From Candidatus Krumholzibacteriota bacterium (lineage in GTDB: Bacteria; Krumholzibacteriota; Krumholzibacteriia; JAJRXK01), in assembly GCA_029262065.1 (NCBI GenBank), contig JAJDAC010000014.1:1-64000 (forward strand): a stretch of 64,000 nt of DNA, in the 5' to 3' direction. This document shows positions 21,284 through 36,289 of the stretch, one piece after another (positions within the stretch are counted from its first letter, which is position 1; the number at the start of each line of letters is the position of its first letter). A model generated the notes under the pieces. It worked only from the letters and a program-made list of their open reading frames with translations. It did not search any database and was not told the origin of the DNA. Both the position numbers and the translations under genes were made by a program.

Positions 21284-21495
21284 GGGACCCATGCCCGGCC
21301 CCGCATTCGCGTTTCGCCAGCGTTTGGGCGGTTCGGGGAACCACAGGGCAAGCTGGGGAACGGGGGCCCCGCATCGACCCATGGCATGTGCTTTGCGTTA
21401 CAGCTCGGTCGCTCCCTGCGTTATGTGGCGCAGGTATCGACATCATTGCTCAGATCGGGCGCGCGATCTGGAACCGACAACAACGCGAGCGCAAA
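21284..21495 (+). promoter_or_regulatory. Leader region of the surface-protein/motor operon
   Basis: The right part of the 300-base divergent gap. The operon's promoter should be here, but I find no clear -35/-10 pair on the plus strand. The ribosome-binding site of the first gene (GAGCGC before ATG at 21496) is weak. Confidence 0.3.
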
Positions 21496-24400
21496 ATGAT
21501 TCGAAACAACGCCTGGTTGGTCGCGGCCGCTCTGGTCCTGGCCATGATAGTTCCGCAGACGGCCTACGCGTTCGACTACCTGGAAATAACGGTAGTCAAC
21601 CCGCAGATCGTCCAAGGCCGGCCGGCGGTAACGGTGGAGGTGGCCTATAGCGTGCGCGTTCGCGCCGTGAATGCCAACGGTACCACCGACACGACGGCCG
21701 ATTTCATCAACGCCGAGTTGTACTCGCCTGACGTGCCAGCGACGCTACCGTCCAGCGCGTACCTGCAGGCGGGCGAACGTCAGTTCGACAATCTGGTCAT
21801 GCTGGCCGACGGACAGCCCGTGCGGTTGCGCGTGCGCGACGCCGACGACGGCTCGGTCCCGTTCGGCGAAATCCTGATCGACTGCTACAACTTCGTGGAT
21901 CGATTCAACGTGGTGGTACCCGGCGGCGACAAGTTCGTCGACCAGGCCATCAACATCACCTTGCAGGCGCTGGATCAGAACGGCGATCTGGTCCTGAACT
22001 TCCGCGACGACGTTACGTTGGACGCGCTGGTGGGTGACTTCGCGTCGGGTCCCACCACGAACGTGGCGGGCACCTCGTTTACGCTGGGTGCAGTCACGGT
22101 TCCGGTGACGTTCTGGGGCACTGATCCCGCCACGCGCGAAAACGAACTCACGGCCACCAACGCCATCACCTATCCCGGGCAGGGACTTCCCGCGTCGGGT
22201 CAGGCCACGGTTACGCCGCTACGGCCGGGTCCGCTGAACACCGTCATGCTGCTGTTGCCCGGTGAAACGCTGACGCCCGGCGTGAGCCCAGGTAAGACCG
22301 GCACGCCGAACGCCCAGATTTCCGGTATCGCCTTCCCCGGCGTCGACGTCTACGCCACCGACCTCCACTGGAATCCGGTGGAGCCGCCGACCTATCCCAC
22401 GCTGACGTGGAGCACCGACGACCCCAGCGGCGGAGTCTCACTTCCGGCCGGCGGCGGCATGTCGGGCAACGCCGAACTCGACGAGTCGGTCACCCTGATC
22501 TCGTCGGGCCTGCGTCGCGTGACCGCGACCGCGAGCGGTGCGATTTCTTCCAGCAGCGACAGCTTCGTGCAGTTGAATCCCGAAGGTCTTGACCATTTCG
22601 TGTTCGACTACGCGGTCTGGGACACGACGGACGTGCAGGTCACGACAATTCCGTTCCAGCTGCGCGTGCGGGCCGAGGACATCAACAACAATCCGTTCCC
22701 GTTCAACGGCCAGGTCACCATCCGCGCCCTGCTGGGCACGTCGGACGAGAGCGAAGATTACGTCATCGTCAACAACAGCACGTTCGTGAACGGACAGCTG
22801 GACGCCCTGGTGCAGGTAACCAAGCGCGCCTTCAGTGCCCGCGTCATTGTCGACAGCAACGGCGCCGTGGTTGGAACCAGTGGTCGCTTCCAGGTGAACT
22901 CAGGGCCGCTGGATCGGATCATGACTACGTGGCCGGGCGAAACCTGGGTGCCTGGTTTGAACGACGACACGTTCAGCGGCAACATCGGAAATCCCAACTC
23001 CACCGTGGCCGGGGCGGAAGTGTTTCCCGTTACCGTGCGTCCGGTGGATCGCTACGGCAACATCGTGTCGGGCCAACGCAACGTCACGGTGTCGTCGGGC
23101 ACGGGCTATTTCGAGCTGCCCGACTATCCGAACAATCTGATTTCCTTGAACAACCCGGTGGACGTGCGCGTGATCCTTCGCACGTACCAGACACAGACGC
23201 TTACCTGCGACGCCAGTGGCGTGGGCCCCGAACCCTCCAGCGGTGTATTTGTTTCGCCCGCGCCGTACGGGCGGATGGTCGTGGAGGCTCCGGGGGAGAC
23301 CCTGGATCCGGGAATCTTCGACACGCTCGAAGACGACGGAAAGATCGGCAACCCGTCGGTGCAGGACGCCGGCGTGCCCTTCGACGTACGGGTGTACGCG
23401 GTGGATTCCTACTGGAATCCCATTACCGACCTTGATCCCGCATTGCCCATTTCCACCAACTTCGACAGTAGCGACCCGGCCGCCGTACTGCCTTCGTCGC
23501 CGCAGTCCCTGACCGACAACTCGGTGGACTTCACGGTCACGCTGATCACGCTGGCCGACCCGAATCAGCAGACGGTGGAAGTGGATGATCCCGCGAACGG
23601 AGTCTCGGCCTTCGTGCCGATTCCGCTCAAGGCCGGTATCATCGATCACTTCGATATCGGCGTGAACAACTCGAGCAATCCCACGCCCAATGACGTGCTG
23701 CTCGACATTCCCGATCACCAGGCGGGTTCATCGCTACCCAACGTCACCATCGTGGCGCGGGATGTGTTCAACAACCACATCGCTGACTACACCAACGACG
23801 TCACGCTGTTTGTCGATCATGGCACCAACGTGCTTACGCCGCAGACCGTGAGCATGGGCGATGGCTTTGGCTCGGGCACCTACCAGGGTGTCTGGCGTGG
23901 GCCGATTCAGATCACCAAGGCCGGCGTCGACGTGCGACTGTTCGCACGCGAGGAACTGTTTGCCACCACCGACAGCAGCAACGCGTTCACGGTCTTTGCC
24001 GGCCCCTACGGCGACCTGGTGTTGCTCTTGCCGGGCGAATCGCACACTCCCGGTATCGCGCCGGGCAAGGTGGGTACGCCGTTGCCGACAATCGCGGGCG
24101 ATCCCGTGGTGGCTACCGTTCTGGCGACCGACGCGTACTGGAACCCGGTTACGTCGCAACCCGCGGTACACCTGGCCAGCAGCGACTACTTCCAGATGAT
24201 CTCGGCCAACGATCAGCCGTTGGATCCCGACGGAACGGCCACGTTCGACCTGTTGTTCCGGGCCGCCACGTTGCAAACGCTTTCGGTTTCCGATTTGATT
24301 ACACCGGCCAACGCCGATGAGTCGGACATCCTGGTATCACCCGACGAATTCGCGCGCCTGATGATACTCCTGCCCGGAGAAACAGCCCAGCCCGGCGGCC

Positions 24401-27400
24401 CCGAGGCCGATGGCAAGACGGGTACGCCCACGACCCAGATCGCCAGCATTGATTTCGATGTGCGCATGCATTCGGTGGATCAGTTCTGGAACCGGGTCGA
24501 CAACAGTACCGAGCACATTCATCTGGCTACCGACGACGCTTCGGTCACGCCCACCAACCCGGTCAACAATGACCAGCAGTTGGTGAACGGCGAGATCATC
24601 ATGCCCATGTTCCTTACGACGACCGGCTTCGTCACGTTGTCGACGTCGGCATTGGACGATCTGGCCATCGTCGGCCAGTCGGTGACGGTGGAGGTGGAGC
24701 AGGGGTCGCTGTACCAGATCACGACTCCGGCTACCGCGGCGGTGGGGCCACCGGCCGCGTTCAGTATGACCATTGCGTTGCTGGACAGCCTGGGAAGCCC
24801 GGTCCCCGAAGCCAACAACTTCGTGGACATCAAGGCGTTCCGAAGCAATCTGCAGCCGGCGTCGTCCACGCTGCAGGTAACGCAGGCGCAGCTGAACGCC
24901 GGTACGGTGACCATCACGAATCAGGCCTATGATACGGTGGAAGAAATCGTTCTGCAGATCACCGATGCGTCAGGGCGGGCCAGCTACAGCAATCCCATTA
25001 TCATGACCGCCAACGGTCTGGAGTACGTGGTCACGGTCGGCACCGATCCGCCGCCGCGCGTCGGTCCCCCGGCGACGTTCCCGGTGAGCGTGGTTTTGCG
25101 CGACACCGATACGCAAACCATCATCGATGACGACCGCGATTTCACGGTGGAGGTCTACAACTCGCTGGGCGGGTTGGGCGCGGGCGTCTGGGCGGTTACG
25201 AACCAACGACTCGACCGCGGTACCATTACATTCCAGCAAAGCTACACGCGCGCCGAGAACATCTACATACGCATCAGCGACTCGACGGGTCTGGAAGGCT
25301 TCAGTCCTGTTTTTGCCGTGGCCCACGACGGCTACAAGCGGTTGCAGATCGTGGCGCCGGGCGAAGTGGTTGAGCCAGGCGTGGCCGCGTTCGACGCCGA
25401 AGGAAAGTCGGGTACGCCGGACCGGCATCGTTCGGGTGAGCCCTTTCCCATTACGGTTCGCGCGGTGGATCAGTACTGGAACCTGGCATCGGATATCGAT
25501 ACCGGCGACCTGCGACTGGTAGCCAGTGACAATTCGTTTTCATTGCCGGGCAACCCGAACGTAAACAACGTGCCGTTCGTGAACGGCCGTCGCACCTTCA
25601 CGGGTTTCTTGACCGACCAGGGCACGGTGGATGTCACCGTGTACGATGAAGCCGATCTGGCCAAGCCGGAGCAGACGGTGGGCGTGCCGATCGATCCTCC
25701 GTACGAGTACCAGATCACGGTGCCCGCCACGGCGAGCACGGGCCCGGTGCCTGGTTTCCAGGTGGTCGTCACGTTGATCGACCCCACCACGGGCAATGTG
25801 GTGCCATCGGCCCAGAACCGGGTGTATCTCACCGCGCTGCAGACCAATCTGGCGCTGGCCAGTGGGACCCTGGGTGTACCGGAAACGCAGTTGATCGACG
25901 GTGCCGCCGTGGTCAACAACCAAAGCTACAGCACGGTCGAAGACATCATTCTGCGGGTCAGCGATGACTTCGGTCGTGAAGCATTCAGTACGGTCATCCA
26001 AATGGATACCGGCGGACTGTTCTTCTCGGTATCGATTCCCGATTCGGCCACGGTCGGTCCGCCCGTGAGCTTCCCGCTCACGGTCGAGTTGCTGGATTCG
26101 AACACCGGTGAGCGGGTCACCACGCAGGACCGATTGGTCGACATCGAAGTGTTCAGCGCCAGCTCCGGGCTGGCGGGTACGGGGGCGCTAGGCGTTCGGC
26201 AGGGACTGTTGGAACAGGGCCTGTTGACGATCTCGCAAACCTACTCCAAGGCCGAAGACATCTTCCTGCAGGTGAACGACGACACCGGGGTGACCGGAAT
26301 CAGCAACACGTGTCGTGTGCTGGCCGACGGTTTCAAGCGATTGCAGATCGTGGCGCCCGGCGAGATGCCCGAAGCCGGCGCCTTGTCGGGCACCGGCAAA
26401 TCGGGGGTCGTGCTGACGCAGCAGGCCGAGGTCCCGTTCAGCGTTCAGATCCGCGCGGTCGATCAGTATTGGAACATGGTGAACACCATTTCCGATGGCG
26501 TGATCCGGCTGACCAGCTCCGGCAACACCTTGTTGCTCGAGGATCCGGTGGATGAGGGTGCTCCGTTCGTGAACGGCGCGCGCGACTTCCGCATCATATT
26601 GGGTGATCCCGGCGTGGTGGCGGTGTTCGCCACCGACGAGAGTCGTCCTTCGGTGAGCACCGGTCGTGTTGACATTCCGGTGAACGAAGCCGAGTACCGT
26701 GTGATTCTGCCGGACCCGGCCGTGGTTACCGCGGGTCCTCCGTCGACGTTTGCCGTCACTGTCCGCTTGGTCAATCCGGAGACGGAAGAACGGATCAACG
26801 CCGGCAACGACTTCAACATGCGGGCACTGCTTCCCGACCGGACCGCGGCCAGCAATACCCTGGGTATCGATACCGGTACCCTGGTGGCGGGTGAGGCGCA
26901 GGTAACCGGTCAGAACTACGCGACCAGCGAGACCATCGTCATCGAGGTTACCGACTCGCGTGGACGCGTGGCTTACAGCGACGAGTTGGTGGTGGCCCCG
27001 GTGGGCGTTACCTGGTCGGTCGCGGTACCCGACACCGTCTACGCGGGCCAGCCGTGGTCCATGGACGTGCAGCGCATCGACATCGTGACCGGACAGATCG
27101 TGACCAGTGACGATCGCAATTTCACGCTGACCGCGTTCAGCGGCAACGCACCGCGACCCGACATTGCGTTGGATCCCAATGGTGTGTTGTGCACGACTTC
27201 GGGTACCACCTCCGGTGGCACGGTTACGCTGGCCGGACAGTGCTACGACCGCGCCGAGGCAATCTTCCTGGAGCTGACGGACTCGTTTGACGAAGGAACG
27301 TTCAGTACCGTCATCCAGGTACTTCCGGATGTTGCCGCGGAATTGAATCTGTTCGTGGAAGAACTGCCTGGTCAGCCGTTGAATCGTCCGTTGCGTCCAG

Positions 27401-28254
27401 GCGAGCTGGCCTTCGTGGCCGCCCGTCTGACCGATGCGTCGGGCAATCCCATCCCCAGCGGAACGGTGACCATGCAGGTCACCTCCGGTGATGGTCGTCT
27501 GGGCTCGGCCCAGGCTACCGCGGTAGATGTGGCAACCGATGGCAACGGCCGCGCCGACGCGGATCTACGGATTCTGGATACCGCGGGCGATGACATTCTG
27601 TTGAACGCCTACGTGGGCGGCATCCTTTCCAACACCGTGTTGGTGGAGGTCCTGGGACCACCGCGCACGACCATCTCGTTCGCGCCCGAGGCTTCACCCT
27701 ACGGTGAAGACGGTTTCTACCTGTCGTCTTCTACGCTCATTCAGTTGCAGGCCACGACCGGTGATCCGGGCGGCATCCAGGCCATCTTCGTCGACGTGGA
27801 TGTCAGTGACCCGCCGCTGCCGCAGCAGGTCTATACGGGTCCGTTCTCCCTGGACGATCTGGGCCGAGGAGCGCCGGGCGTGCACACGATCCGTTTCTTC
27901 GCCGAAGAGGTGTCAGGCGTCATCGAAGAAGTGCAGACAGTGCGGTTGTACACCAGCACCGCGCTAAGCACCGATCGTCCCATCACCAACCGACCGAACC
28001 CGTTCCGGGCCGGTCAGGAGTCCACGGTAGTCCTGTTCCAGGCACCTACCAGCGGCACGGTGACGGCCACGATCTATGACTTGTTTGGAGGCACCGTGTT
28101 CAGTCGTCAGCTCCGTGTGGATGGCGGCACCACGGCACAGTTCGTGTGGGATGGAGTCAACGGGCAGGGGTCCACCGTGGCCAACGGTGGTTACATCCTG
28201 CGGGTACAGGGGCCGGGAATAGATCTCCGGCGCAAAATTGGAGTGCTCAAATGA
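21496..28254 (+). CDS. Giant secreted repeat protein with C-terminal FlgD-like Ig domain
   Basis: A 2,252-residue protein with a Sec signal peptide (1-25, cut after AYAF region). It is built from Ig-like/invasin-like beta modules. One module, consensus LxxLxPGExxxPG...GKxGTPxxQ...FxVxVxAVDxYWNxV, occurs seven times (DNA starts 22228, 22903, 23266, 24007, 24349, 25333, 26332). From 24349 it alternates with pairs of a second module (VGPPxxFxVxVxLxD ... LxxGxxxITxQxYxxxExIxLxVxDxxG), giving a roughly 330-residue super-repeat. A bacterial Ig-type segment (about 1950-2035) and a final FlgD-like domain (RPNPFRAG to RRKIGVLK) close the protein. This suggests an adhesin or cell-surface fibre. It is the first gene of the operon and its stop overlaps the next start (ATGA). 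The upstream frame to 21388 lacks a start signal. Confidence 0.8.
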   Translation: MIRNNAWLVAAALVLAMIVPQTAYAFDYLEITVVNPQIVQGRPAVTVEVAYSVRVRAVNANGTTDTTADFINAELYSPDVPATLPSSAYLQAGERQFDNLVMLADGQPVRLRVRDADDGSVPFGEILIDCYNFVDRFNVVVPGGDKFVDQAINITLQALDQNGDLVLNFRDDVTLDALVGDFASGPTTNVAGTSFTLGAVTVPVTFWGTDPATRENELTATNAITYPGQGLPASGQATVTPLRPGPLNTVMLLLPGETLTPGVSPGKTGTPNAQISGIAFPGVDVYATDLHWNPVEPPTYPTLTWSTDDPSGGVSLPAGGGMSGNAELDESVTLISSGLRRVTATASGAISSSSDSFVQLNPEGLDHFVFDYAVWDTTDVQVTTIPFQLRVRAEDINNNPFPFNGQVTIRALLGTSDESEDYVIVNNSTFVNGQLDALVQVTKRAFSARVIVDSNGAVVGTSGRFQVNSGPLDRIMTTWPGETWVPGLNDDTFSGNIGNPNSTVAGAEVFPVTVRPVDRYGNIVSGQRNVTVSSGTGYFELPDYPNNLISLNNPVDVRVILRTYQTQTLTCDASGVGPEPSSGVFVSPAPYGRMVVEAPGETLDPGIFDTLEDDGKIGNPSVQDAGVPFDVRVYAVDSYWNPITDLDPALPISTNFDSSDPAAVLPSSPQSLTDNSVDFTVTLITLADPNQQTVEVDDPANGVSAFVPIPLKAGIIDHFDIGVNNSSNPTPNDVLLDIPDHQAGSSLPNVTIVARDVFNNHIADYTNDVTLFVDHGTNVLTPQTVSMGDGFGSGTYQGVWRGPIQITKAGVDVRLFAREELFATTDSSNAFTVFAGPYGDLVLLLPGESHTPGIAPGKVGTPLPTIAGDPVVATVLATDAYWNPVTSQPAVHLASSDYFQMISANDQPLDPDGTATFDLLFRAATLQTLSVSDLITPANADESDILVSPDEFARLMILLPGETAQPGGPEADGKTGTPTTQIASIDFDVRMHSVDQFWNRVDNSTEHIHLATDDASVTPTNPVNNDQQLVNGEIIMPMFLTTTGFVTLSTSALDDLAIVGQSVTVEVEQGSLYQITTPATAAVGPPAAFSMTIALLDSLGSPVPEANNFVDIKAFRSNLQPASSTLQVTQAQLNAGTVTITNQAYDTVEEIVLQITDASGRASYSNPIIMTANGLEYVVTVGTDPPPRVGPPATFPVSVVLRDTDTQTIIDDDRDFTVEVYNSLGGLGAGVWAVTNQRLDRGTITFQQSYTRAENIYIRISDSTGLEGFSPVFAVAHDGYKRLQIVAPGEVVEPGVAAFDAEGKSGTPDRHRSGEPFPITVRAVDQYWNLASDIDTGDLRLVASDNSFSLPGNPNVNNVPFVNGRRTFTGFLTDQGTVDVTVYDEADLAKPEQTVGVPIDPPYEYQITVPATASTGPVPGFQVVVTLIDPTTGNVVPSAQNRVYLTALQTNLALASGTLGVPETQLIDGAAVVNNQSYSTVEDIILRVSDDFGREAFSTVIQMDTGGLFFSVSIPDSATVGPPVSFPLTVELLDSNTGERVTTQDRLVDIEVFSASSGLAGTGALGVRQGLLEQGLLTISQTYSKAEDIFLQVNDDTGVTGISNTCRVLADGFKRLQIVAPGEMPEAGALSGTGKSGVVLTQQAEVPFSVQIRAVDQYWNMVNTISDGVIRLTSSGNTLLLEDPVDEGAPFVNGARDFRIILGDPGVVAVFATDESRPSVSTGRVDIPVNEAEYRVILPDPAVVTAGPPSTFAVTVRLVNPETEERINAGNDFNMRALLPDRTAASNTLGIDTGTLVAGEAQVTGQNYATSETIVIEVTDSRGRVAYSDELVVAPVGVTWSVAVPDTVYAGQPWSMDVQRIDIVTGQIVTSDDRNFTLTAFSGNAPRPDIALDPNGVLCTTSGTTSGGTVTLAGQCYDRAEAIFLELTDSFDEGTFSTVIQVLPDVAAELNLFVEELPGQPLNRPLRPGELAFVAARLTDASGNPIPSGTVTMQVTSGDGRLGSAQATAVDVATDGNGRADADLRILDTAGDDILLNAYVGGILSNTVLVEVLGPPRTTISFAPEASPYGEDGFYLSSSTLIQLQATTGDPGGIQAIFVDVDVSDPPLPQQVYTGPFSLDDLGRGAPGVHTIRFFAEEVSGVIEEVQTVRLYTSTALSTDRPITNRPNPFRAGQESTVVLFQAPTSGTVTATIYDLFGGTVFSRQLRVDGGTTAQFVWDGVNGQGSTVANGGYILRVQGPGIDLRRKIGVLK
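22228..26487 (+). repeat. Seven-copy PGE/YWN module and three-unit super-repeat in the giant surface protein
   Basis: Copies of a 50-56 codon module lie at 22228-22380, 22903-23073, 23266-23430, 24007-24156, 24349-24504, 25333-25494 and 26332-26487. Each runs from a (Y/F)xRLxxxxPGE-type start to an AVDxYWN-type end. The last three are spaced 984 and 999 bases, with two second-type modules between each. Copies 6 and 7 share RLQIVAPGE and near-identical DNA, pointing to recent duplication. A degenerate fourth start (LNLFVEELPGQ) is at about 27340. Confidence 0.85.
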
Positions 28255-29540
28255 TGCCCCGCCGCGCAATGGCGCTTTCCTTGGCGGTCCTGTTGGCCGC
28301 ACCGATGGTTGGGTCAATCGCGTACGCCGCGGATGACGCCGGCGTGGCCGGAGCGTTCCTACGCTTTGGTAGCAGTGCCCGGACCTTGGGAATGGGCAAC
28401 GCGGTAACCGCGATGCCCGACGACACCGCGGGTGCGTACTGGAACCCGGCTGGGCTCGCCTTGTTGCGAACCATGGAACTCACTGGGATGGGCGCCACGT
28501 TGTTCGACGATACCCAGTTCACGTTCTTCAGTCTCGGGTTGCCCACCGAGAACGCGGGCACGTTCGCGCTCACGGGATCCTTCTTCACCAGCGGAAGCTT
28601 CGAGCGAGCCACCCTGTTCGAAGACCTCGACGAGAGCTTTTCAGAGAGTTCAGGCTTGTTCGCGCTCAGTTACGCCCGGGGCACCGGACGGTTCGCGTGG
28701 GGTGTCAGCCTGAAATCGGTGTCGCAGACCGTGGCCGGAGCCAGCGGCGGCGGCATCGGCGCCGATCTGGGTCTGTACTTTCGGCCGCACCGCAGCATCA
28801 GCTTCGGCATGGCGTACCAGAACGCCATCGCGCCGACCATCACGCTTGATCAGCAGCCCGAAGAGTTCGCACGCAGCCTGCGCGGTGGAACGGCTTTGCA
28901 CTTCTTCCAGAATCGACTGCTGGTCAGCTCGGATCTGATAAAGACCGACACCATGGACCTGGATTTTCGCAGCGGCATCGAGGTCTGGGCCAACCGTTCG
29001 TTCGCGTTGCGGTCGGGCTACGACACCGTGGCCGAGCAATCGACGTTCGGTGCGGCCTTCCGCTGGGAAAACTGGCAGATCGACTACAGCTTCCTGAACC
29101 ACGCCCTGGGTGGCACGAACGTGCTCAGCGCCACGCTACGGTTTGGTGTGCCCTACGGTGTGAAGGTCCATCGAGACCGCACGTTGTTCAGCCCTTCGGG
29201 TGAGGACAAGGCGGTCGAGTTCGCCATCGATACGGCCGTGCGCGGCACGGTTGAGAATTGGCAGCTCGTGATTCAGGACGATACGGGTAAGCAGGTACGG
29301 GTGCTCGAAGGGCACGGGACGCCGCCCGAGGGCGTCACCTGGAGCGGCGAAGATGACAACGGCCGCCTGGTCGAGGACGGAAACTACCACGTGAAAGTGG
29401 TGATTCTCGACGAGCTGGGCGAGCAATGGGACTACGACACCAGCGTACGCATTCTGGGCTTCCAGAGCCGTACAAGGTCGCCGATCCGGGTTGAGATCAG
29501 CGGTAGCGAAAGCGAACCGCAGGAAGGGAAGGACCGATGA
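28251..29540 (+). CDS. PorV/UPF0164-like outer-membrane barrel protein with C-terminal FlgD-type module
   Basis: A 429-residue protein with a signal peptide (1-27, cut after AYAA). The mature start GVAGAFLRFGSSARTLGMGNA and DDTAGAYWNPAGLA are the hallmark N-terminal signature of the PorV/PorQ/UPF0164 (FadL-like) outer-membrane family, followed by amphipathic beta strands to about residue 305. The last about 110 residues form a FlgD-like module (WQLVIQDDTGKQ, GHGTPPEGVTWSGEDDNG, DGNYHVKVVI) that should lie in the periplasm. PorV in Bacteroidota is the shuttle of the type IX secretion system that binds C-terminal domains of cargo; whether this one does so is inference. Starts within the giant protein's stop (ATGATG) and ends overlapping the next ATG. 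Confidence 0.8.
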   Translation: MMPRRAMALSLAVLLAAPMVGSIAYAADDAGVAGAFLRFGSSARTLGMGNAVTAMPDDTAGAYWNPAGLALLRTMELTGMGATLFDDTQFTFFSLGLPTENAGTFALTGSFFTSGSFERATLFEDLDESFSESSGLFALSYARGTGRFAWGVSLKSVSQTVAGASGGGIGADLGLYFRPHRSISFGMAYQNAIAPTITLDQQPEEFARSLRGGTALHFFQNRLLVSSDLIKTDTMDLDFRSGIEVWANRSFALRSGYDTVAEQSTFGAAFRWENWQIDYSFLNHALGGTNVLSATLRFGVPYGVKVHRDRTLFSPSGEDKAVEFAIDTAVRGTVENWQLVIQDDTGKQVRVLEGHGTPPEGVTWSGEDDNGRLVEDGNYHVKVVILDELGEQWDYDTSVRILGFQSRTRSPIRVEISGSESEPQEGKDR

Positions 29541-32500
29541 CTCTGCGGGGGAGCCTCTTTCTCGTCGTTGCCTGGCTGATGTTCAGCGCGGTGGCGGAGG
29601 CGGCTGAAGAACGGCAGGTTCTGAGCGAAGACGCGCTATGGCGCGCGGCCGGAGCCGCCTTCCAGGACGGGCAGGACAAGTCGGCCGCCATGCAGCAGTA
29701 CCGACTGTTCGTAAATACCTACAACAAGAGTGAGCATGCCGCCCAGGCGCAGTTCATGTTGGCCGAATGCTACTTTGCAATCGGCGACTATGAGACCGCG
29801 CGCAAGGAGTTTGCTCGGGTCAAGGACTTCAAGGGACGCACCGACTACCTCGACGCCAGCGTGAGGCTGCGCATCGGCGAGTGCTGGTTCAACGTGGGCG
29901 ACATGGACGCCGCCATTGCCACCTACACCGGGCTGATCGACAAGTACGAAGACAGCTTCCTGTTGTCGGAGGCCCTGTACGAAGTGGGTCTGGCCTACAT
30001 CGTCGATGGCAACTGGCTGAAACTGAAGGCGGCCTATCGCCGCCTGCTCGACGCGCGTCCCGGCTACGGTGAAATGGCGCAGGTGAAGTTCGCGTTGGGT
30101 CTGTTTGCGTACCACGACGAGCGATACGACGAAGCCATTGCCTATTTCGAACAGGTACCCAGCGATCGCGGTTTGTACTACCTGGGCCGTTGCCTCGAAG
30201 ACACCGGCCAGTACATTCTGGCCATCCAGCGCTACAAGCAGGTTCAGCGGCAGTTTCCTGACAGTCCACTCGGCGATGACGTGGCCTTCAGCGTGGCCGA
30301 GGCATTCTACCGGAGTGGTCAGAACGCGGTGGCGGTGCGCAGCTACCAGGAATTCATCGAGTCGTTTCCCGAATCGGATTTCGTACCCAACGCCCGCTAC
30401 AAGATGGCGTGCGTCACGTACCAGGAGGGTCGCTACGACGAGAGCATCCGCGAACTGCAGGAAATCTGCAAACTGTTCAAGGGCACGATCGTGTGTGCGT
30501 ACGCCGCCTATCTGACGGGCGACTGCTACATGCACCTGGGACGAACGGCCGATGCCATCTTCGCCTACACCGGCGTGGTCAAGGACTTCGAGGACTCCAC
30601 GGTGGCCAGCGCCGCGCTGCATAAGATCGTGTACGCCTACGCCGAAGACGAAAACTGGGGCCAGTCGATCCAGATGGCCAAGGAATTCGAACGTCGGTAC
30701 GCGGGAGACCGCCTTGAAGCCCGCGTTTCGGTGTTGCGAGGCTTCGCGCACTACCGGCTCGAGGAATACGACGCGGCGATCCTGTCCTTCCAGAACGTGC
30801 TGGACAAGAACGTGAACACCGATGTGGCCGAGCGTGCGCTGTTCCTGGCTACGCTCGCGCACAAGGAACAGGGCGACTACGATCGCCTGATCACCAACTA
30901 CAATTTCATTGCCAGCCGTCTGTTGCCCACGCCCAGCGTGTGGCGAGCTCGTACCTACTACCATCTGGGTGAGGCGTACTACACCGAAGGCCTGTACCGC
31001 GAAGCCAGCGGTATGTATCGCCTGGTGCTTACTGGCTATCCAAAGAGCAACGTAGCCGCTTCTTCGTTGCAGGGGTTGGTCGCCAGCCTGAGCCAGATGG
31101 ACGAGTACGAGTTGGCGCTGCAGGAGCAGGAGAAGTTCCTGCTCGAGCTGGCCAATGCCGACAGCGAAGAGGGAACGAACTCGCTTGCGGTGGGCTCCAT
31201 CTACTTCAACCAGCACAAGTACGAAGAATCCCTGCGGGAGTTCCTGGACTTCATCGAGGCGCACCCCGACGCACCCGAGGCCGCGGCCGCGCTGTACAAG
31301 GCCGGCGATGCCTACTATCGCCTGCAGTACTACGAGCAGGCTCTGCAGATGTGGTCGAGACTCGTGAGTCGCTTTCCCGACGCTCCGGAAGTGGGCGACG
31401 CCACCTATCGGATCGCCGATACGCAGTTTGGCTTGGGTCAATACGCCGATGCAAACGCCACATACGGAAGTCTCCAGGCGGCGTATCCCAATTCGAGTCA
31501 CGCTGCCGACGCCGCGTTTGGTGTAGCCAACTGTGCCTACAACCTGGGTCAGGACGATCGCGCGATCGCAGCCTTCACGCAGTTCGTTGAACGCTACCCC
31601 GACGACCCGCGGGTCGAAGACGCGGAGTTGGGGATCCAATCCAGCTACTACCGTAGCGGTCGCAACATGGAAGAGTACCTGTCCAAGCGCCCCGACAGCG
31701 CGCTGGCGGCCGATGTGGTGTGGAACCAGGGTCAAGATGCCTTCGCGGCGGGAGAATTCAAGGCGGCGGCCAAGGCCTTCGAACGCGTCACCTTGGACTA
31801 TCCGGGCAGCGAAAGCGGAGCCGGTGCGCTCTTCTACCTGGCCGAGAGTTACTACCGGTTGGAAGAGTGGGAGCCAGCCCGCGCGGGATTCCGCAACTTC
31901 CTGACCACGCACGGCGGGCATGAGTTCGTGGAACTGGCCATGTTCCGAACGGCCACGGTGGAGTTCAAGCTCGAGGAATTCGCGTCGGCCGCGGCCACCT
32001 ACGAGACGCTGCTCGACGAGTATCCCACTGGTGAGTACGCGCCGCTGGCCGCCTACAACCGCAGCGTGGCCTTCCAGCAGGTGGAAGATTGGACCGCGGC
32101 CATTGGTGCTTTGGTCCAGCTGCTGGATGACTACCCGGACAACGAACGTTCCGCGGGCGCGTGGCTCGAAGTCGCCGCGCTCTATCAGGACGAACTGGGC
32201 GACTACGCCAAAGCCGTCGATGCCTACGGCAAGGCGTTGGCGCAGGGCGCGGGCTCGGCCGTCGAAATTCACTACTACCAGGGCCAGTGTCACGAGAAGG
32301 CCAAGGACTGGGCAAACGCTCTGGCGGCCTACCAAGCTTCGGCGAGCGCGGCAAATGGCGGGGCTGACCCGTTTGCCGTGGCCAGCTTGGTGCAGATTGG
32401 AACGATTCACGAGGATCGGCACGAGTGGTCCGAGGCCGTCGGAGCTTACGAGCAGATTCTGAGTGCGGGCGGCAAGCCCGAGTGGAACGCGATGGCGCAA

Positions 32501-32545
32501 GAGAGAATCGACGCCATTCGCGGTGGTCTGGACGTGGGTCGATAG
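29537..32545 (+). CDS. Large periplasmic tetratricopeptide-repeat protein (CpoB/YbgF/BamD-like repeats)
   Basis: A 1,002-residue protein with a signal peptide (1-22, cut after AVAEAA). The rest is tandem alpha-helical TPR units of 34-38 residues with the usual pattern, for example AQFMLAECYFAIGDYETARKEF, AYLTGDCYMHLGRTADAIFAY and LFYLAESYYRLEEWEPARAGF. I count well over twenty repeats. The repeats between Tyr-rich units resemble those of CpoB/YbgF, which in Tol-Pal operons works with TolA, and of BamD. It starts inside the PorV-like gene's stop (ATGA), and exbB follows 24 bases later. It probably forms a long periplasmic scaffold linking the motor to the outer-membrane protein. No catalytic domain is visible. 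Confidence 0.85.
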   Translation: MTLRGSLFLVVAWLMFSAVAEAAEERQVLSEDALWRAAGAAFQDGQDKSAAMQQYRLFVNTYNKSEHAAQAQFMLAECYFAIGDYETARKEFARVKDFKGRTDYLDASVRLRIGECWFNVGDMDAAIATYTGLIDKYEDSFLLSEALYEVGLAYIVDGNWLKLKAAYRRLLDARPGYGEMAQVKFALGLFAYHDERYDEAIAYFEQVPSDRGLYYLGRCLEDTGQYILAIQRYKQVQRQFPDSPLGDDVAFSVAEAFYRSGQNAVAVRSYQEFIESFPESDFVPNARYKMACVTYQEGRYDESIRELQEICKLFKGTIVCAYAAYLTGDCYMHLGRTADAIFAYTGVVKDFEDSTVASAALHKIVYAYAEDENWGQSIQMAKEFERRYAGDRLEARVSVLRGFAHYRLEEYDAAILSFQNVLDKNVNTDVAERALFLATLAHKEQGDYDRLITNYNFIASRLLPTPSVWRARTYYHLGEAYYTEGLYREASGMYRLVLTGYPKSNVAASSLQGLVASLSQMDEYELALQEQEKFLLELANADSEEGTNSLAVGSIYFNQHKYEESLREFLDFIEAHPDAPEAAAALYKAGDAYYRLQYYEQALQMWSRLVSRFPDAPEVGDATYRIADTQFGLGQYADANATYGSLQAAYPNSSHAADAAFGVANCAYNLGQDDRAIAAFTQFVERYPDDPRVEDAELGIQSSYYRSGRNMEEYLSKRPDSALAADVVWNQGQDAFAAGEFKAAAKAFERVTLDYPGSESGAGALFYLAESYYRLEEWEPARAGFRNFLTTHGGHEFVELAMFRTATVEFKLEEFASAAATYETLLDEYPTGEYAPLAAYNRSVAFQQVEDWTAAIGALVQLLDDYPDNERSAGAWLEVAALYQDELGDYAKAVDAYGKALAQGAGSAVEIHYYQGQCHEKAKDWANALAAYQASASAANGGADPFAVASLVQIGTIHEDRHEWSEAVGAYEQILSAGGKPEWNAMAQERIDAIRGGLDVGR

Positions 32546-32569: not shown

Positions 32570-33262
32570 ATGATTGGGGATCTAACCCTTCTGGAGCTGT
32601 TTCGGTCGTCGCCCACAATGACCGTGCTGTTGCTGTGCTCCATCGTCACCGTGGGTTTCGCCGTGGAGCGCTGGATGTACTTTGCGCGACACGCAACCAA
32701 GTCGGGTGGCTTCATGAAGAAGCTGGCGCCGAAGCTGAAGTCGCAGAACACCAAGGCTGCTCTCACCCTGTGTGAGGAGTCGCGCGGTTCGGTGGCTCGC
32801 GTGCTTGCGCAGGGTTTGAATCACCTGCATATGGGCCGCGACGAACTGAAGAATCGCATCAACACCGCCATCGAGGTGGAGCAGGTAGAGATGGAGCGCA
32901 ACCTCAGCGTGCTTGGCACCATGAGCAACATCGCTCCGCTTCTGGGTCTGTTCGGAACGGTGGTCGGTATCATCCGGGCCTTCGCCGACATCGCGAAAAC
33001 CGGTTCCGGTGGAAGCTCGGTGGTGGCCATGGGTGTGGCTGAAGCGCTCATGACCACGGCGGCTGGAATCGTGGTCGCAGTCATCGCCACGGTATTCTTC
33101 AACGCTTTCGTGCGCATGATCCGAACCCGCACCGTCGAGCTCGAAGATGCGCGCGAAGAGTTCTTTGCCTTGCTGCCGAGGGCACCCCTGGCTGTCTCGA
33201 ACCACACGCAACCGCAGAGCGCTTCCTCGCAAGAGCCGGCTCCCAGCGGTTTTCTTTCCTAG
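32570..33262 (+). CDS. exbB: ExbB/TolQ/MotA-type proton channel protein
   Basis: A 230-residue inner-membrane protein with three helices (about 16-34, 115-138, 150-172). The conserved pore motifs are NIAPLLGLFGTVVGIIRAF on helix 2 and ALMTTAAGIVVAVIATVFFNAF on helix 3, with a cytoplasmic region between helices 1 and 2. Family members form a pentamer around ExbD/TolR and convert proton flow to motion. GGAGAGGAAG precedes the ATG. It is followed by two different ExbD-type genes, so it probably serves both. The C-terminal about 30 residues are Ser/Pro/Gln-rich. Confidence 0.93.
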   Translation: MIGDLTLLELFRSSPTMTVLLLCSIVTVGFAVERWMYFARHATKSGGFMKKLAPKLKSQNTKAALTLCEESRGSVARVLAQGLNHLHMGRDELKNRINTAIEVEQVEMERNLSVLGTMSNIAPLLGLFGTVVGIIRAFADIAKTGSGGSSVVAMGVAEALMTTAAGIVVAVIATVFFNAFVRMIRTRTVELEDAREEFFALLPRAPLAVSNHTQPQSASSQEPAPSGFLS

Positions 33263-33280: not shown

Positions 33281-33712
33281 ATGTTTGGTAAGAACAAAGG
33301 CACCGCAGCGGGTATCACGGGCGCGAACATCACGCCCCTGGCCGACGTGACCACGACCCTGATTGTCGTGTTCCTGGTGACCATGCCTACCATTCTATGG
33401 AGTGGTATCGAGGTGAAGGCCACCGAAGCCGAGGGGGGATCCCAGGTGATTTCAAGCCAGGCCCCGAAAGAGAACACCCTGCTCACTATCGCGGTCCGGC
33501 CCGACGGCCTGACGTTGAATCGCGAGCCCATCGAATTTGCCGATCTGGGTCCCAAGTTGGTCGAGCGTCTCGCCGAACGCGAAGACAAGACCGTCGTGGT
33601 CGTGCCCAGTGATTTGGTGGAGTTGGGCGAGGTGGTGGCGGTACTCGACGTGGCCAAGGCCAGCGGCGCGGGATCGTTGGCTCTTCTCAACCTGAAGGAA
33701 TCGAAGCGATGA
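33281..33712 (+). CDS. exbD: ExbD/TolR-type protein, canonical copy
   Basis: A 143-residue bitopic inner-membrane protein. A short cytoplasmic N-terminus leads to one helix (about 20-40) that carries the essential protonatable residue, Asp22, in the motif TPLADVTTTLIVVFLV. The periplasmic domain (about 60-140) has the ExbD pattern LLTIAVRPDGLTLNREPI, then a DKTVVVVPSD strand, typical of the dimeric ExbD/TolR fold. It works inside the ExbB pentamer. It ends ATGA-overlapped with the second exbD-type gene. Confidence 0.92.
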   Translation: MFGKNKGTAAGITGANITPLADVTTTLIVVFLVTMPTILWSGIEVKATEAEGGSQVISSQAPKENTLLTIAVRPDGLTLNREPIEFADLGPKLVERLAEREDKTVVVVPSDLVELGEVVAVLDVAKASGAGSLALLNLKESKR

Positions 33713-34119
33713 AATCGCAACCGGGGTTCGAGGTGAAGGTAGATGTGGTCCCGATCATCAACGTGTCGTTGGTCATCGTCCTCACGCTCATGATCATCTC
33801 ACCCTTTCTGGACAGCAGTGAGCACCCGGTCGACCTGCCCCAGGCCAACGCCAGCGAGGCCGAGGATAGCGAGAACATCGAGATCACGTACACGCTGGAC
33901 GGTGAGATCTGGGTGGATGAGCAACTGCTTCAACTCAGCGAGGTCCAACCGTACCTGCGCGAGTTGATTGCGTTGAGTCCGCACTCGACGGCCGTCGTCA
34001 AAGCCGATCGCGCCATTCTCTACGGGGACGTGGAGCGATTGATAGCCGAAATCGAGTTGGCCGAGGCCGCGCAGATCGCGTTGGCGACGCGCCAACACGA
34101 CCAGGAGTCGGGTGAATGA
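33709..34119 (+). CDS. Second ExbD/TolR-type protein with Asn in place of the essential Asp
   Basis: A 136-residue bitopic protein, one helix (about 13-31) and a periplasmic domain with the ExbD features ITYTLDGEIWVDEQL and TAVVKADRAILYGDVERLIAEI. In the helix the motif reads VPIINVSLVIVLTLMI. Aligned with PLADV of the preceding gene, the proton-carrying Asp is Asn18, which cannot be protonated in the same way. Asp12 nearby lies outside the helix position. ATGA overlap on both sides (with exbD and with the TonB-like gene) indicates strong translational coupling. It may pair with the canonical copy as an asymmetric dimer. Confidence 0.9.
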   Translation: MKSQPGFEVKVDVVPIINVSLVIVLTLMIISPFLDSSEHPVDLPQANASEAEDSENIEITYTLDGEIWVDEQLLQLSEVQPYLRELIALSPHSTAVVKADRAILYGDVERLIAEIELAEAAQIALATRQHDQESGE

Positions 34120-35315
34120 TTCGCCAATCAATAAATCGATCGCAATCGACGCGCGGGGGGCTGGCGACGAGCTTTGGGCTGCACGCGGCCATACTGTTGC
34201 TGTTGGTGATCGTCGCTCAGCGCGCGGCCGATGTACCGGAAGCCGAGGAGCTCACGCGCATCTCGTACATCGAAGCCACGTACGGCGAAGATGTCGCCAA
34301 GAAGGTGCGCATCAAGACCGCACCCAAGCCCAGCCCTGATCCGCCGGGCAAGGGAATCTCGACCGAGTCGCTGGCCAAGAAGGATTCGGCGTCCGAAAAG
34401 GCGCCCGAGCCCAAAGCGCCCACGCCGACGCGACGTACGTCGCAGCAGGAGTTGGCGGCGGCGCCCAAACTGGAGTCGCGCGAGCCCGTGCGCAATACGC
34501 CCATGGAATTGCCGGGACGAGTCGAACTCTCGTCCAAGGACGTGGCGGAGATCTCCGCTCCCTACGTGCCGCCTACGAAACGTCGTGAGAGTTTCATGCC
34601 CAACGACGCCGCGCTCAAGAGTCGCGGCAAGTCGCTGGCGGTTGCCGATGCCGATATTGCCGGCAGCTCGTTGAAGAGTACCCCGGGTAGCAAGCTGGCC
34701 ACCGATGATGGTCCCGCGCTCAAGAGTCGCTCGGGCGGAACTTCTGGCGGTACCAGCAGCTATGCGCCGCCAACCTCTGGCCTGCGCTCCCGCGGCGGGG
34801 GCAAGGGAATCGCGGACGCCACGGGTTCACCGAATCCGGGTCGATCTTCCAGTGAAAAAGGGCGACGCACCATCTTGGACTACGGCCAAGGTGGCGGCGG
34901 GTTGAAAGGCAAAGGCGGCGGCCTGGCTGAAGCGCCTTCGGCTGTCGTGAAGCCCAAGGCATCTTCGCCCAAGGCTCAGATCGCCGACACCGCGGCCGAT
35001 CAGATCGACGCCAATGGCATGAAGATGACGATCTCAGGCCAGATCAAGGGCCGCAAGATTCTCGAGAGCGTGCCGCCCCAGTACACCGATCGCGCTCGGC
35101 GTGAGGGTTGGGAAGGCGTAGTTGGCGTGCACTTCACCGTAATGCCCGACGGTCGCGTGAAGGACAACATGTACCTGGAGCAGACCTCGATGCATCGTGA
35201 TCTGAACCAGGCCGCCATGCGCGCCATCAAGAAGTTTCGGTTCGCTCCGCTACCGGGGAACCAACCCCAGGTCGAGCAGTGGGGCGTCATTACCATCGTG
35301 TTTCGTTTGAGCTAG
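34116..35315 (+). CDS. TonB/TolA-like energy-transducing protein
   Basis: A 399-residue protein with one N-terminal helix (about 17-36) that carries the Ser19-x3-His23 motif (SFGLH) used by TonB and TolA to couple to ExbB/TolQ. A long Pro/Lys/Ser/Gly-rich periplasmic linker (about 55-300), with several ALKSR-like segments, follows. The last about 95 residues are a TonB C-terminal domain: VPPQYTDRARREGWEGVVGVHFTVMPDG split by the usual loops, then AAMRAIKKFRFAPLPG and WGVITIVFRL. It should span the periplasm and transmit force from the ExbB/ExbD motor to an outer-membrane partner, which may be the PorV-like barrel or the OmpA-like protein. The start overlaps the previous stop (ATGA). Confidence 0.88.
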   Translation: MIRQSINRSQSTRGGLATSFGLHAAILLLLVIVAQRAADVPEAEELTRISYIEATYGEDVAKKVRIKTAPKPSPDPPGKGISTESLAKKDSASEKAPEPKAPTPTRRTSQQELAAAPKLESREPVRNTPMELPGRVELSSKDVAEISAPYVPPTKRRESFMPNDAALKSRGKSLAVADADIAGSSLKSTPGSKLATDDGPALKSRSGGTSGGTSSYAPPTSGLRSRGGGKGIADATGSPNPGRSSSEKGRRTILDYGQGGGGLKGKGGGLAEAPSAVVKPKASSPKAQIADTAADQIDANGMKMTISGQIKGRKILESVPPQYTDRARREGWEGVVGVHFTVMPDGRVKDNMYLEQTSMHRDLNQAAMRAIKKFRFAPLPGNQPQVEQWGVITIVFRLS

Positions 35316-35335
35316 GGACCCGACGGAGGAACGTC

Positions 35336-36289
35336 ATGGCCGGCAGACAGAAGATTCTGGGATTCACTTCGAGCACCGCCATCATTCTGGCGCTGTCGAC
35401 CACCATTGCGGTGGGCGAGGACGAAGCGACTGAGGGCAAGCAATTCACCGAGGCCGGTGAAGAGGGGGCTGCACTACCCGAGATGGTGGTGGAGGCGCAG
35501 AACCAGGTGCGTCAGGACATACAGAAGAGTGCGTTCGATTTCGAACTGACCGCCGCCGAGGTGGACTCGTTCTACACGGTAACCGACGCCGAGGCGTTGG
35601 GCATGAGTCCGGTCAGCGGTCTACAACCTCATTTGAACAACCTGGAGACCCTGGCCAGCGACCAGCCACCGCATTACTGGTTGCCTGAGATGAGTCGTGA
35701 GCCCGTGGCCACGTTCTATCCCGAAGAGGCCGAGGGCCACAAGGTTCGCGACTGGAAACTGGTCATTACCGACTTCCGCGGGTCGCAGTTCCGTGAATTC
35801 ACCGGTGGGGGCACACCGCCCCAGAAGCTCGAGTGGGATGGGCGTGGGGACGACGGCACCATTTTGGAACCTGGCTATCCGTACAGCTACGTGTTCAGCC
35901 TGACCGACAAGGGAACCAATACCTACAACCACGCGGGCGTGAGCTTCCGGGTGCCGGGACTGGACTACCACGACGGTGGCAATCGCCACCTGGAGTTGGC
36001 CGGCGACGAGTTGTTCAGTCGCTTCGAAAGCGAATTGGGTGACACGGGTCGAGACTGGCTGACGCGAGCCTCAGACGTCATCCGCGAGCATCCCTATTCC
36101 CCCGTGCGCGTCTACGTACTGGCCGAGGATCTGGGCTTGGCCGAGGATCGCGCCGACGCGGTGGCCTCGTTCCTGGCCAGCAGCATGATCGTGCCGCGGG
36201 AACAGATCGAGACCGAAGCCGAGCAGCGCCCCGACCTGCGGTCCGAGCTCGATGGTCGCGTACGCATCGTCATCGAGCACGCGGAATAA
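35336..36289 (+). CDS. Secreted protein with FlgD-like module and degenerate OmpA-like C-terminus
   Basis: A 317-residue protein with a signal peptide (1-27, cut near VGED). After an acidic stretch (30-50), residues about 140-205 form a FlgD-type module (WKLVITDFRGSQ, GGGTPPQKLEWDGRGDDG) closely similar to the one in the PorV-like protein. The last about 75 residues (VRVYVLAEDLGLAEDRADAVASFL split over loops, then DGRVRIVIEHAE) resemble an OmpA/Pal peptidoglycan-binding domain, though the usual NxxLSxxRA core is weak. It could be the Pal-like anchor of the motor. GGAGGAACGTC precedes the ATG at 35336. Its last 20 bases overlap the end of the convergent M28 peptidase gene. Confidence 0.65.
   Translation: MAGRQKILGFTSSTAIILALSTTIAVGEDEATEGKQFTEAGEEGAALPEMVVEAQNQVRQDIQKSAFDFELTAAEVDSFYTVTDAEALGMSPVSGLQPHLNNLETLASDQPPHYWLPEMSREPVATFYPEEAEGHKVRDWKLVITDFRGSQFREFTGGGTPPQKLEWDGRGDDGTILEPGYPYSYVFSLTDKGTNTYNHAGVSFRVPGLDYHDGGNRHLELAGDELFSRFESELGDTGRDWLTRASDVIREHPYSPVRVYVLAEDLGLAEDRADAVASFLASSMIVPREQIETEAEQRPDLRSELDGRVRIVIEHAE

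Follow-up and report, generated by a model that had tools for sequence, protein, structure and literature searches.

Described motors of the ExbBD and TolQR type

In the AglRQS motor of Myxococcus xanthus, which drives gliding and sporulation, one TolQ-like subunit is combined with two TolR-like subunits (PMC3169522), and a review has proposed that AglQ and AglS work as a coupled pair in a single motor (PMC9120999). Asp28 of AglQ is essential (PMC3858216); the AglQ D28N mutant is dead, as is E. coli ExbD D25N (PMC11658791, PMC3858216), and AglQ D28N fails even though the second TolR-like subunit, AglS, is present. A statement on the Asp status of AglS was not found in the AglRQS literature short of the primary 2011 PNAS paper, and the absence of the acid from AglS may already be known. 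In published models of these motors, one Asp of the central dimer lies at the ExbB/TolQ threonine and the other at the cytoplasmic cavity, and the two alternate in their roles with a 36-degree advance per proton (PMC12215075, PMC9389320); the resulting tenfold symmetry has been termed almost certainly universal (PMC9389320).

Homodimeric cores are found in the MotAB/PomAB stators and in GldLM, which belong to the 5:2 proton (or sodium) motor family proposed below for the present locus, but MotB and PomB keep both acids. In PVC bacteria, pairs of different tolR-like genes have been described next to a tolQ-like gene and a TPR gene, as here, although with a vWA transducer in place of TonB; the available part of that report (PMC12204202) mentions no loss of Asp in one copy of a pair. 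In the literature searched, no description was found of paired ExbDs in which one copy has consistently lost the Asp; the nearest cases are AglRQS and these tolR pairs.

Operon organisation

The window, i.e., the whole 64,000-nucleotide stretch of Candidatus Krumholzibacteriota DNA that was analysed, carries a block of seven genes in which a tandem of two exbD genes is flanked by exbB on one side and a TonB-like gene on the other:

28248..29540, + strand: outer-membrane barrel of the PorV/PorQ family with an FlgD_ig tail, first gene of the block (NF033709, 116 bits, cut-off 90; PF13860)
29537..32545, + strand: TPR protein of 1002 aa with YbgF/BamD-like repeats, directly 5' of exbB, a position kept in relatives (Pfam TPR_6, 241 bits)
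32570..33262, + strand: pentamer subunit of the ExbB/TolQ type (PF01618, 105 bits)
33281..33712, + strand: ExbD1, the acid-bearing copy, 143 aa, with Asp22 followed by Thr24-25-26 in the helix (PF02472, 59.3 bits; Asp invariant among orthologs)
33344..33346, + strand: Asp22 codon of ExbD1, GAC
33356..33358, + strand: Thr26 codon of ExbD1, at +4 from the Asp, a signature residue of copies with a neutral partner
33709..34119, + strand: ExbD2, the acid-free copy, 136 aa, with Asn18 (PF02472, 60.2 bits; AlphaFold model)
33742-33744: Asp12 codon of ExbD2, at -6 from Asn18
33760..33762, + strand: Asn18 codon of ExbD2, AAC, at the proton-carrier site
34116..35315, + strand: TonB-like force transducer (PF03544, 58 bits; TIGR01352, 59.7 bits, cut-off 27.1)
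35333..36289, + strand: periplasmic OmpA-like protein, last gene of the block, a weak match (PF00691, 16.7 bits, below the cut-off) in a kept gene order

The order PorV-like barrel, TPR, ExbB, ExbD1, ExbD2, TonB, and OmpA-like protein is the same in most complete loci of relatives. ExbD1 and ExbD2 overlap by 4 bp (ATGA), the same type of overlap joins ExbD2 to the TonB-like gene (34116), and the spacing between the ExbD1 stop and the ExbD2 start is -3 to +4 nt across all Krumholzibacteriota loci of the window type. The N-terminus of the TonB-like protein (SFGLHAAILLLL) resembles the SHLS motor-binding motif.

The operon shares with ExbBD-TonB the ExbB, the ExbD fold, the TonB C-terminal domain, the SHLS-like helix, the pore threonines, and the operon order, but differs in having two distinct ExbD genes, one of them without the Asp, and in the replacement of Pro190 of ExbB in its clade. 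It does not classify as AglRQS, since its neighbours are TPR and TonB genes and GltG is absent. Scores against the NCBIfam equivalogs of TolQ/TolR and ExbB/ExbD remained below the cut-offs (TIGR02801, 59.9 versus 127.3; TIGR02803, 30.2 versus 153; TIGR02796, 105.6 versus 221).

Thr130 and Thr163 of the window ExbB correspond to the pore threonines Thr148 and Thr181 of E. coli ExbB; the E. coli residues used for the numbering agree with those named in PMC12215075. Both threonines are intact in all 79 partner ExbBs of the pairs described below. The helix-3 Pro190 of E. coli is replaced by Ile172 in the window ExbB and is missing in nearly all Krumholzibacteriota ExbBs of the window type. Its loss was considered as a marker of asymmetric motors, but this was rejected, since 11 of 30 ordinary operons with Asp in both copies show the same loss (12 of 31 if the Asp/Asp ortholog L017 is counted), which is not seen in the AglRQS-like set or in the sets with Ser or Ala in the neutral copy.

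ExbD2 as an acid-free member of the ExbD family

Both products exceed the PF02472 cut-off of 25.4 bits. The membrane helix of ExbD1 reads NITPLAD22VTTTLIVVF and that of ExbD2 DVVPIIN18VSLVIVLTL, and alignment to solved ExbD/TolR chains places Asn18 opposite the essential Asp, which is thus present in ExbD1 and absent from ExbD2. The initial annotation of 33281-34119 as paired ExbD/TolR genes with Asp22 aligned to Asn18 is confirmed in both residues and in Pfam membership. At -6 from this site canonical ExbDs have Asn, where copies lacking the Asp often have an acid.

An AlphaFold model of ExbD2 built from 28 sequences (mean pLDDT 75.6) comprises a helix at residues 16-35 and the ExbD/TolR periplasmic domain, and its best PDB matches are TolR 5by4 and ExbD 8pek, 8p9r, and 8vgc. 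ExbD2 thus has a genuine ExbD fold but lacks the acid; it is an ExbD homolog, although the Asp that would mark it as a proton-carrying ExbD is absent. Mean helix identity across the phylum is 0.86 for ExbD2 and 0.90 for ExbD1, against 0.50 and 0.53 for the respective periplasmic parts, and the helix core of ExbD2 has an average identity of 93%. Conservation of the membrane helix thus comes close to that seen in ExbD1, and rather than the inactive subunit suggested in the initial annotation, ExbD2 is probably a functional partner that lacks the acid.

Conservation of the acid/neutral pairing

Orthologous operons, all of them from uncultured genomes, were collected in three ways. A search of 58 genomes with ExbD2 returned 13 orthologs besides the window's own. 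In the other two, the ExbD2 residue played no role in the choice: an ExbD1 alignment run against 84,980 species genomes gave 27 loci, and ExbD1 searched against 80 genomes of the phylum identified 29 with the operon. In these 29 genomes, ExbD1 invariably has the Asp, while the ExbD2 residue is Asn in 28 and Asp in one; the larger scan likewise gave Asp/Asn in all 25 of its Krumholzibacteriota-like loci. Asn is encoded by AAC or AAT, one transition away from Asp (AAC to GAC), and orthologous operons differ in 53% of comparisons at fourfold-degenerate sites. Because 28 of 29 genomes keep Asn despite such divergence and the ease of reversion, Asn18 is conserved beyond chance, and this conservation across orthologous operons also rules out a sequencing error as its source. 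The D/N difference is therefore retained in homologous operons, and the arrangement that would speak against it, Asp in both copies, was seen in only one genome of the 29.

Outside the phylum the picture changes in one respect. An ExbD1 search among relatives of the two remotest hits revealed operons of the same gene order in which ExbD1 again has the Asp and ExbD2 has Ser (MPAIS, MPLTS), Ala (TPLVA), or Asn (APIIN, LPLIN). One genome (G058) carries three separate operons of this kind, bearing Ala, Asn, and Ser (loci L105, L113, and L064). Since the three residues alternate in ExbD2, the kept trait is the loss of the acid rather than the gain of Asn; a specific need for Asn is ruled out, and it becomes less likely that Asn must stand in exactly for a protonated Asp. 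The asymmetric pair proposed in the initial annotation thus stands as a conserved Asp/neutral pairing, but not as a conserved Asn. Judging from these comparisons, the pairing is ancient.

Among 79 distinct adjacent pairs, whose proportions are no census because sampling followed relatives of this system, 31 are D/D, 31 D/N, 11 N/D, 3 D/S, and 3 D/A, that is, 48 acid/neutral, 31 acid/acid, and no neutral/neutral pairs. Single ExbDs with a readable site have Asp in 32 of 32 cases, and the two neutral copies that lack a visible partner both lie on truncated contigs. A tree built without the Asp column needs five changes between acid and neutral, at least four of which are forced by well-supported branches; the counts give no direction.

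The Thr signature and the single Asp/Asp ortholog

When the partner is neutral, the acid subunit carries Thr at +4 in 36 of 37 pairs (D/N, 30/31; D/S, 3/3; D/A, 3/3), compared with one of 94 other acid copies (1/62 in D/D pairs and 0/32 in single ExbDs); in the AglRQS-like acid copies, Thr is found at +3 in 8 of 11. When the tree is taken into account, only two to three independent contrasts remain and the association is not significant, so the link between the +4 Thr and a neutral partner is suggestive. By helix geometry, this site shares almost the same helix face with the Asp and lies one turn further towards the periplasm, and the Thr may therefore tune the Asp, without necessarily touching the partner.

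The sole Asp/Asp ortholog is that of genome G054 (L017/L172). Compared with a sister genome (L015), its ExbD1 differs at one helix position, the change of Thr to Ile at +4 (TTTL to TTIL), whereas its ExbD2 has eight changes in the helix, among them Asp to Asn at -6 and Asn to Asp at the carrier site. On the sequences compared, the Asp of this ExbD2 is most simply explained as a reversal.

A second asymmetric operon in the same genome

On contig C2 of the same genome (L068, 9628-12280), a gene for a GltE-like TPR protein is followed by exbB, by two exbD genes, the first encoding Asn (MPLMN) and the second Asp (TSMMD), and by a gene for a protein with a GltG/GltJ tail (NF033768, 91 bits, cut-off 40). 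This operon matches the gltE-aglRQS-gltG type of cluster (PMC3169522), and its Asn/Asp gene order is opposite to that of the window. AglRQS-like loci of the phylum comprise 11 complete pairs and a truncated one, with Asn first and Asp second where visible. Their Asn and Asp copies form sister clades far from the ExbDs of the window; the window operon differs further in ending with a TonB-like gene instead of GltG. A search of cultured bacteria (plasmid search) for AglRQS-like Asn copies yielded only Bradyrhizobium genes annotated as exbD, with 27% identity.

Possible mechanism

The reading we favour, with somewhat better than even confidence, is that the operon encodes a heterodimeric ExbB5-ExbD1-ExbD2 motor with a single proton carrier, pulling the co-encoded TonB-like protein. 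From the operon structure, the strict pairing, and the Thr signature, we infer that ExbD1 and ExbD2 share one ExbB pentamer, whose central dimer would consist of one Asp-bearing and one neutral subunit. Protons would be carried by ExbD1 alone, ExbD2 would be permanently uncharged, like a protonated Asp, and the dimer would turn or switch at each protonation and release of the single Asp. If rotation needs both sites to be neutral, the neutral partner would always be ready and each protonation would license the next position, 72 degrees on. If the pentamer retains fivefold symmetry, one turn would then take five protons and five 72-degree steps instead of ten steps of 36 degrees. Proton use and maximum torque per turn would both be halved.

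Against this heterodimer count the dead D25N and D28N mutants, the failure of the AglQ mutant despite the presence of AglS, and the one Asp/Asp lineage, as well as the small number of Thr contrasts and the origin of all compared sequences from uncultured genomes. An ordinary two-Asp motor formed by ExbD1 homodimers, with acid-free ExbD2 dimers either occupying ExbB in idle, closed complexes or acting only through their periplasmic domain as a regulator, would fit the strict pairing and the lack of neutral-only operons equally well, and ExbD1 does have all canonical residues. We nevertheless regard this arrangement as unlikely, because ExbD1 is unlike ordinary Asp copies in its +4 Thr, the tight translational coupling suits a heterodimer, and the ExbD2 helix is strongly constrained. 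Moreover, the +4 Thr is gone in the one lineage in which ExbD2 regains the Asp, which suggests that the two helices are coupled.

Two carriers would also be kept if ExbD2 took its proton via another acid, for example Asp or Glu at -6. This position is acidic in the neutral copies of all three D/S and all three D/A pairs, in 10 of 11 AglRQS-like Asn copies, and in 12 of 31 D/N copies, including Asp12 of the window. Yet it is Thr in 14 and Asn in 5 of the 31 D/N copies, Asp at -6 is also present in many ordinary Asp copies (DMTPMVD type), and residue 12 precedes the helix in the ExbD2 model, where the helix is predicted to start at 16; such a displaced carrier appears quite improbable. That ExbD2 is a decaying paralog under relaxed constraint is hardly credible: decay is usually recognised by the loss of a catalytic residue, but the identity of the helix core and the Asn kept in 28 of 29 lineages contradict it, and the residue varies by clade while neutral never pairs with neutral.

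The favoured single-carrier heterodimer bears on current rotary models, which need two Asp residues where the window sequence offers one per ExbD pair. A mismatch kept for so long suggests a proton motor with one carrier, as opposed to the textbook two that alternate, and a natural motor of this kind would be a ready-made test of two-acid alternation in the ExbBD, TolQR, and MotAB models. A permanently neutral partner is permitted if, as one model has it, the dimer rotates only with both sites neutral; it is less obvious that a simple rail model would allow it. More tentatively, and with slightly less than an even chance in our view, obligate acid/neutral 5:2 motors with five steps per turn may have arisen several times (in the Ton-like operon of the window, in AglRQS-like operons, and in Elusimicrobiota operons), contradicting the rule of tenfold alternation.

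Cellular role

The motor probably has a task linked to the neighbouring PorV-like barrel and TPR protein, and an outer-membrane job tied to PorV-like barrels is likely. The genome contains at least eight PorV-family genes scoring over the cut-off and an SprA-like type IX translocon gene (contig C32:21244-27696, about 508 bits summed), while GldL and GldM, the type IX secretion motor, had no match in it at E <= 1. A motor other than GldLM may thus power the SprA-type translocon. As a functional clue, co-occurrence with SprA proved uninformative, the gene being nearly ubiquitous in the phylum (77 of 80 genomes); because it is also present in genomes without the operon, a type IX secretion role for the window motor is only a lead. 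The PorV-like gene is adjoined by a gene for a repetitive secreted protein of 2288 aa with an FlgD_ig-like end domain (21388-28254), the C-terminal part of which is kept at the same place in relatives.
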